DNA of 64,000 nt, from positions 248,001 through 312,000 of the forward strand of contig NZ_QGLL01000008.1 of assembly GCF_003202695.1 (NCBI RefSeq), written 5' to 3'. This stretch comes from Bifidobacterium asteroides. Its GTDB lineage: Bacteria; Actinomycetota; Actinomycetes; Actinomycetales; Bifidobacteriaceae. The position numbers and the translations under genes are program-made. Positions 57,955 through 59,527 of this stretch are shown here, one piece after another; position 1 is the first letter of the stretch, and each line of letters begins with the position of its first letter. The notes under the pieces are model-generated. The model did not search any database and was not told where the DNA came from. It saw only the letters and a program-made list of their open reading frames with translations.

Positions 57955-58839
57955 ATGCAGACACAGCCGGTTCCTGAATACCAAATGCGGGCGCGTCGTC
58001 GACTGACGATCCTGGCACGACGTATGGTCGCCGGCATCGGGGCACTTCTACTGGCCGTCTCCATGTCCGGATGCGCGCCTTCAGCGGTGCACGTCAGTCG
58101 GCACGACCCCGACAATCTCCGTTCCACCGCCTGCGAGCAGGCATGGACCCGAGCCCGGCGGTCGGATCAGCTCCAGCAGAAGGATCAGGCAGACAGCCGG
58201 GCCCAGGCCTGGATCCAAGCGGCTCGCGAGTGCCCTTCCCAGCTGGATGAAGCTACAGTACACGCAGCCCAGGCTTTATCGGCCTCCCAGGGCGGGCAGA
58301 CCAATCGTCGAGCAGCTACGCTCAGACTGGTCCAGGCTGCGCAGCGGTTAGATCCGCTGTCCAGGATGCTGCCCACCGAACTGCACGATCAGGCAGTCAC
58401 GGGCGAAGACCGTTCCGGGTTCTACTTATCGGTCCTCGCAGCCCGCAAAACTGATGCCACATGGATGCTGACCCTAGCCGATGCGCACACAACGGCCGCG
58501 CAGATTCTGGTCGGCCGCTCCAAACACGATCCCCGACAGGGAGTCTATCCCACCACTGATCTTCTGGCGCACCCCGATGATCGAGTCGACCCCGCCAACG
58601 GAATACAAATCCCTACTCCCGCTCTTATCGAGATGGACACGGCCCGGACTCTTCTGGATGTGGGGAGAAAACTGAACGGTTCCTCAGGCACGATACGCAC
58701 CGACGCCAGCCAGAACGCAAAAAGCCGCCAGGAAGCCGCATCTGCCCTGGTCGACATGATCGTAGCCCACATATCCATGGCCATGAACCTTGGCTATCCA
58801 ACCGCTTCATCAGCTCTGCTGCACACCTCCAAGCACTGA
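57955..58839 (+). CDS. Putative lipoprotein, function unknown
   Basis: A 294-residue protein with a basic N-terminus (RARRRLTILARR), a hydrophobic segment and a lipobox-like VSMSGC (Cys near residue 41). The rest is mostly helical and Ala/Gln/Arg-rich. I recognise no family. A TATTCT box ends eight bases before the ATG, suggesting a leaderless mRNA; an internal ATG (57985) would give a shorter signal sequence. It is divergent from nusA. Confidence 0.7.
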   Translation: MQTQPVPEYQMRARRRLTILARRMVAGIGALLLAVSMSGCAPSAVHVSRHDPDNLRSTACEQAWTRARRSDQLQQKDQADSRAQAWIQAARECPSQLDEATVHAAQALSASQGGQTNRRAATLRLVQAAQRLDPLSRMLPTELHDQAVTGEDRSGFYLSVLAARKTDATWMLTLADAHTTAAQILVGRSKHDPRQGVYPTTDLLAHPDDRVDPANGIQIPTPALIEMDTARTLLDVGRKLNGSSGTIRTDASQNAKSRQEAASALVDMIVAHISMAMNLGYPTASSALLHTSKH

Positions 58840-59042
58840 CAGCTCACCTGAATCGTTTCTCACGACGTTATCTCTTTCTTATGCGCGAGCGTTCCCTGCC
58901 AGTGGATGCCCACAGCGTTAGCAAAGGTCAGCAGCAACGATCAGACATTATCAGTGATCAAACATTTCGAATTCATCGAAATCTTCAACCATAAGAGGAC
59001 GTTGCGAGTGGCGATATAAGCACGGACAGTGCTACCATAGAA

Positions 59043-59145
59043 CGTGTTCCACGGGATTATTTCCTTGGAACGCGGGGGGTATGAACCCGTGCAATGTAGG
59101 AGGCGACCTAGTGTTTGCCACTGCATCGCCTCCTGCATTGCACGG
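59043..59145 (+). ncRNA. Candidate structured noncoding RNA (two consecutive hairpins)
   Basis: Hairpin 1 pairs CGTGTTCCA (59043-59051) with TGGAACGCG (59066-59074). Hairpin 2 is a 20-bp stem, 59087-59106 with 59126-59145, broken only by one G-T pair. Its loop can form an inner AGTG/CACT stem. An extended -10-like box (59030-59038) lies just before. A Shine-Dalgarno AGGAGG (59098-59103) is locked in the stem, with a GTG at 59111 that opens a short frame, so a regulated leader is another reading. The strand is inferred from the promoter-like box. No known family is recognised. Confidence 0.4.
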
Positions 59146-59300
59146 CATTTGCGTTTGCTCAGCATTAAGACACAGTGCCGTGTCAAACCCGTACAGCCAA
59201 AGAGGGCATAAGGGAATACTACATATAAAAAGCGGTCACGAAACCCAACTCAAGGGGTGAAGCGCTGCTACTTTGCAATGCCGCAACAGAATCAAATACA

Positions 59301-59328
59301 AGGGTCCCGACCGTCAGGCCGGGACCCT
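59301..59328 (-). terminator. Terminator after tRNA-Ser(CGA)
   Basis: AGGGTCCCG (59301-59309) pairs with CGGGACCCT (59320-59328). On the minus strand it is followed by TGTATTTGATT. Confidence 0.85.
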
Positions 59329-59333
59329 TAGGG

Positions 59334-59419
59334 CGGTTGAGGCGAGATTCGAACTCGCGGAGGGATTTGCCCTCACACGCTTTCGAGGCGTGCTCCTTAG
59401 ACCGCTCGGACACTCAACC
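59334..59419 (-). tRNA. tRNA-Ser (anticodon CGA)
   Basis: An 86-nt cloverleaf with long variable arm. Acceptor GGTTGAG pairs with CTCAACC and the anticodon loop is CTCGAAA. Confidence 0.95.
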
Positions 59420-59527
59420 ATGGTCGTTGCCCGACACTGCCGAACAACAACTTTTCTATTATGCCACAGAGTCCCTACCTGGCAAGCGGCGTGGCGCAAC
59501 CGCAGCTGCTCCAAATAACCAGGGACC

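Follow-up and report, generated by a model that had tools for sequence, protein, structure and literature searches.

We describe here a conserved, single-copy, stand-alone RNA, termed RNA1, which lies at about 59044-59155 on the + strand (approximately 110 nt) of the window, that is, the whole 64,000-nucleotide stretch of Bifidobacterium asteroides DNA that was analysed. The assignment is well supported by comparison of related genomes, with transcription predicted from a promoter element, and RNA1 is very probably real; it constitutes a new RNA family of an already known kind. We consider it likely that RNA1 acts by base pairing. A more tentative reading, to which we give somewhat less than an even chance, is that RNA1 is a base-pairing small RNA (sRNA) whose G-tract captures a second, C-rich RNA, termed RNA2, in the fashion of a sponge, with the pairing, the sponge role and the genes affected all predicted from sequence.

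Structure and conservation of RNA1

The features of the locus, together with the candidate partner, are as follows.

57955-58839, + strand: upstream gene for a 294-aa protein with a lipobox-like N-terminus (SGC) and no Pfam match
59030-59038, + strand: extended -10 element TGNTANNAT (TGCTACCAT in the window), whose TG, TA and AT positions are the same throughout the alignment
59040-59049, + strand: palindrome GAACGTGTTC, invariant in the alignments, across the predicted +1 (about 59044-59046)
59044-59073, + strand: hairpin 1 at the RNA1 5' end (GUGUUCC ... GGAACGC), from the predicted fold
59074-59082, + strand: G-rich linker GGGGGGUAU, the proposed pairing segment, invariant in 15 genomes; its exact complement is present in the RNA2 loop
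59087-59145, + strand: hairpin 2, the long hairpin (outer 20 bp and inner 4-5 bp), from its arms and covariation; probably also the terminator
59146-59157, + strand: T-tract in degenerate form, CATTTGCGTTTG; most relatives have UCUUUU here, from the alignment
59299-59330, - strand: terminator of the convergent tRNA-Ser gene
59331-59420, - strand: tRNA-Ser(CGA), convergent neighbour, from a local Rfam run and ARAGORN
G000:C6, about 384540-384595: RNA2, a terminator-like hairpin with the invariant loop UAUACCCCCCUCUCC

For this locus the original prediction was of a structured RNA with a regulatory role, preceded by an extended -10 box, and its hairpins, extended -10, AGGAGG and GTG are all present where they had been placed. 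The region 59039-59220 folds at -83.6 kcal/mol, compared with -55.6 +/- 4.0 kcal/mol for 200 shuffles, none of which was as good (z = -7.0). The reverse strand of the RNA1 region folds nearly equally well (z = -6.2), as is expected of hairpins, and hence the strand was taken from other evidence: RNA1 was assigned to the + strand because TGNTANNAT is invariant before hairpin 1 and UCUUUU lies 3' of the long stem in most relatives. RNA1 would be transcribed from its own extended -10 promoter and would end at or near hairpin 2; no good -35 was seen upstream of the extended -10. Given the usual spacing of 6-7 nt between a -10 and the +1, the predicted start is 59044-59046, so that RNA1 would begin directly with hairpin 1. 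Hairpin 1, with arms GTGTTCC (59044-59050) and GGAACGC (59067-59073), had been described as a 9-bp hairpin but consists of an outer stem of 7 bp and a small inner one; it is nearly invariant and thus leaves little covariation available to test. The 3' half of the linker is able to form a small hairpin (GGGU-AUGA-ACCC, 59077-59088) in the predicted fold. The arms of hairpin 2 occupy 59087-59113 and 59119-59145, and the 20-bp stem with one G-T pair proposed earlier corresponds to its outer 20 bp, in which a single G-T pair occurs; this outer stem is perfect in the window strain, with a G-G mismatch there in most relatives. The inverted repeat ATTTCGA/TCGAAAT, which had been pointed out at the same locus, does exist (58964-58970 and 58976-58982) but is not part of RNA1, the stretch being absent in relatives (identity 0.27).

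Alignment of 13 genomes gave a mean identity of 0.92 over 59039-59148, a figure that falls to 0.79 in the promoter and to 0.58 and 0.43 in the upstream and downstream flanks. The RNA1 stems barely vary inside the asteroides group, with double changes in two pairs. Across three lineages hairpin 2 is quite different in sequence and keeps its pairing, as in the long stem of G002 (CCCTCGTCAGGGTAGGGGATGACAT / ATGTCATCCCCTACCCTGACGAGGG). With the conserved G(T/C)AGG motif as a manually set anchor and the loops left out, 94.9% of the cells of 17 anchored pairs were paired and both sides had changed in 8 of the 17. None of 500 shuffles scored as high, a control limited by the relatedness of the rows, and slid controls were paired at 40-49%, a comparison that favours the structure, which was known beforehand. 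The structure of hairpin 2 is thus well supported by covariation across three lineages.

A DNA search of 59 genomes matched the stretch of about 58999-59185 in 15 genomes including the window's, all of one genus, and found no match outside that genus. A covariance model of the 5' part, applied to 189 Bifidobacteriaceae genomes, located RNA1 in 16 (one genus, one copy each), thereby adding the divergent copy in G002, and detected it in no family genome outside this genus-level clade. The matching records are named B. asteroides, B. polysaccharolyticum, B. choladohabitans, B. mellis, B. mizhiense, B. apousia and B. indicum, which we take to be mainly bee-gut bifidobacteria. The divergent copy (G002:C7:5700-10400) has a perfect 25-bp stem and lies beside a convergent MFS-type gene; its G10 linker reads G10-UCA instead of GGGGGGUAU. 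Pattern matches in Quinella and Bryobacteraceae (two) were taken as chance.

RNA1 is always located 3' of the same 294-aa lipobox-like gene (16 of 16 genomes), a gene that is seemingly frameshifted in G017. The neighbour downstream of RNA1 differs between genomes (tRNA-Ser, a sugar ABC transport operon or an MFS-type gene) and, in the loci examined, has a convergent orientation. RNA1 and tRNA-Ser are separated in G021 and G008 by a sugar ABC transport operon with its LacI-type regulator and an 806-aa glycosidase-like gene, and in G014 by a shorter insert without transport genes. An origin as a mobile-element end, MITE or REP was rejected on the basis of the single copy per genome, the fixed locus and the absence of matches to RNA1 in phages, plasmids and viral contigs. 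The GAACGTGTTC palindrome was also considered as an operator and rejected, with no regulon visible in five genomes; exact RGAACGTGTTCY occurs once in four of these, including the window's, and three times in the fifth.

RNA2 as a candidate partner

The exact complement of the linker, ATACCCCCC, was searched in four genomes and found at 36 sites, RNA1 sites included, of which 30 were compared. The conserved classes among these 30 were RNA1, the RNA2 loop, a copper-operator-like palindrome and two coding sites, one shared by all four genomes, within a 253-aa frame, and another in two of the four. The RNA2 loop was the only non-coding, non-operator class besides RNA1 to be conserved in all four genomes. 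The palindrome, TATACCCCCCAGGGGTATA (ATACCCCCCGGGGGTAT in G023; G000:C1:116478), resembles a CsoR-type copper operator.

The RNA2 loop AGAAnUAUACCCCCCUCUCC is invariant in 15 genomes, and its stem covaries (3 of 10 pairs) with 100% of the pairs kept. RNA2, which has no Rfam match, lies downstream of tRNA genes beside a convergent gene for a 217-aa regulator, presumably YheO-like from our reading of its sequence. The DNA upstream of RNA2 is also conserved (0.76-0.90), and a longer transcript may therefore end in RNA2. A hairpin in this upstream DNA (CCACAG...CTGTGG) is conserved as well, and several genomes have a frame of 7-8 codons there after GAGGTGATAG. Of the 189 genomes, only 15 gave strong RNA2 matches, and all 15 also carry RNA1; in G002, the 16th RNA1 genome, the place of RNA2 coincides with a contig end (an assembly gap). 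The single weak match in G002 is the terminator that follows a glutamine synthetase-like gene, and three weak matches outside the genus (G064, G144 and G113) look like unrelated terminators or coding DNA.

In the mechanism that we propose, RNA1 would act in trans by base pairing through its single-stranded G-rich linker, which would bind the C-rich loop of the RNA2 terminator hairpin over 9-11 bp, and RNA1 would titrate RNA2 or alter its stability, like RosA acting on RoxS and FsrA in Bacillus. The run of six Gs in the linker exactly matches six Cs in the loop, and the computed linker-loop duplex of 9-11 bp has an energy of -18 to -21 kcal/mol. Minimum-free-energy dimer folding gained -4.5 to -10 kcal/mol, a value that is uninformative since loop-linear kissing pairs cannot be scored by this method. 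The G-tract is partly paired internally (GGGU/ACCC) in the predicted RNA1 fold. In GC-rich DNA, six Gs facing six Cs carry little information, and ribosome-binding sites at large may be what C-rich loops are directed at. Across 15 genomes linker and loop show essentially no variation, and in G002, whose linker differs, RNA2 falls in the assembly gap; hence there is no linker-loop covariation between the two RNAs. The shared distribution is consistent with a functional link and is not proof of one, because all carriers are related and shared ancestry alone may explain it. Assuming a few exact sites in each genome, of which perhaps a thousandth is taken up by conserved RNA loops, we roughly estimated, by inference, a probability near 0.01 for a chance ATACCCCCC site in such a loop, an estimate that C-runs make optimistic. 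These data suggest RNA2 as a possible rather than a probable true partner of RNA1. That the two form a dedicated circuit particular to bee-gut bifidobacteria, in which a G-tract sRNA captures a C-loop RNA via its terminator-hairpin loop, is a conjecture that we hold with some reserve.

Other explanations of the locus

The same sRNA might use its G-tract to pair with C-rich sites in mRNAs, as a direct regulator, the RNA2 match being coincidental. Everything that supports RNA1 itself applies equally to this explanation, and sRNAs commonly have a linker between their hairpins. In the four genomes searched, however, the conserved exact linker complements were confined to the RNA2 loop, the copper-operator-like palindrome and the two coding sites, and no conserved exact site adjoining a start codon was seen, which makes direct mRNA regulation rather unlikely, while leaving it a serious contender. 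A structured RNA1 could instead owe its function to a bound protein, such as RNA polymerase or an RNA chaperone, and not to base pairing. Its long conserved hairpins, and the invariance of hairpin 1 in sequence as well, would suit such a role, and 6S and Ms1 resemble RNA1 in being conserved small structured RNAs; moreover, Ms1 is reported to be missing in Bifidobacterium (PMC9130861), so that a functional substitute is imaginable. In contrast to 6S and Ms1, the fold of RNA1, at approximately 110 nt, consists of separate hairpins with no long stem bearing a central open bubble, and it has no Rfam match, on which grounds membership in either family was rejected. RNA1 is also limited to one clade, and a purely protein-binding role is in our opinion quite unlikely.

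The absence of a U-tract had been put forward as an argument against a simple terminator. This holds mainly for the window strain, in which the tract is degraded, and a pattern scan of the window returned no + strand terminator at RNA1; the argument fails for the family, in which most relatives keep UCUUUU 3' of the stem, with none seen in two other lineages. Because of this UCUUUU, hairpin 2 probably doubles as the RNA1 terminator, and the window strain has lost that tract. The T-tract of most relatives and the convergent neighbours would also fit a long hairpin that is only a bidirectional intrinsic terminator between the lipoprotein-like gene and tRNA-Ser, with the rest being 3' UTR. However, conservation is among the highest in the promoter element, hairpin 1 and the G-tract, and a plain terminator would not preserve primary sequence; in addition, the stem is kept without a clear T-tract in two lineages and the window, and tRNA-Ser has its own terminator. 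A role solely in termination is therefore unlikely. The original prediction had also allowed for a cis-acting leader, in which opening of the stem would expose the AGGAGG and switch translation of a short GTG frame. Both elements exist in the window, with the AGGAGG inside the 5' arm of hairpin 2 and the GTG at 59111 starting a frame of 49 codons, but the frame is not conserved: it ranges from 1 to 109 codons in asteroides-type relatives, ending at once in two genomes, and the GTG anchor after an AGGAGG-type motif is absent from two lineages. In the loci examined the gene that follows is convergent, which leaves a leader no same-strand gene to control. We thus rejected a cis-regulatory leader or riboswitch, of which the translation-switched form is hardly credible, and, as the frame is not conserved, a short-peptide reading of the GTG frame as well. 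Of all these readings, a trans-acting, base-pairing RNA for which RNA2 is the best candidate partner seems to us the most likely.

Comparison with known RNAs

To our knowledge, very little is known of bifidobacterial small RNAs, and we know of no sponge RNA in the lineage of RNA1. RNA1 provides a bifidobacterial sRNA that is conserved in both sequence and structure, has predicted ends and a candidate RNA partner, and belongs to a well-defined clade of important bee-gut symbionts. It had been matched to no known RNA family, and Rfam 15 agreed: on the whole window and the locus (E up to 10), no family exceeded the gathering cut-off except tRNA-Ser, the best others being chance matches far below it. 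The tRNA-Ser(CGA) gene was overlooked by the whole-window run and recovered by the local Rfam run and ARAGORN. Comparable intergenic candidate RNAs have been described in B. animalis (PMC4338058) and in B. breve (PMC5746004); the portions of these two reports that were consulted contain no mention of the RNA1 locus.

The actinobacterial C-rich-loop sRNA 6C/B11 pairs to G-tracts (RF01066; PMC10470900). RNA1 itself was rejected as a 6C RNA, with no RF01066 match and a G-tract that is the opposite of 6C; no 6C was found in the whole genome of the window strain. RNA2 resembles 6C in carrying a C6 loop on a hairpin, whereas 6C has two C-rich loops and RNA2 has a single one and no Rfam match.

In Bacillus subtilis, RosA (S345/S346) is a G-rich sponge of the C-rich sRNAs RoxS and FsrA (PMC8216469). 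RosA, and also RsaI of Staphylococcus aureus, are like RNA1 in being stand-alone RNAs. They have a 3' terminator hairpin and one or more unpaired G-rich segments directed against the C-rich regions of another sRNA, features that RNA1 would share, although its linker is partly paired in the predicted fold and RNA2 is a putative sRNA. RosA is approximately 225 nt with several G-tracts, whereas RNA1 is approximately 110 nt with one G-tract and is actinobacterial, and the two were likened by description, with no sequence relationship noticed. The case of RNA1 further differs in that the C-tract of the candidate partner lies in a terminator loop and the pairing is predicted. If the two-RNA circuit is true, it would represent a sponge pair outside Firmicutes and proteobacteria, and if the pairing is true, the G-rich/C-rich sponge logic of Bacillus and Staphylococcus would extend to Actinobacteria.
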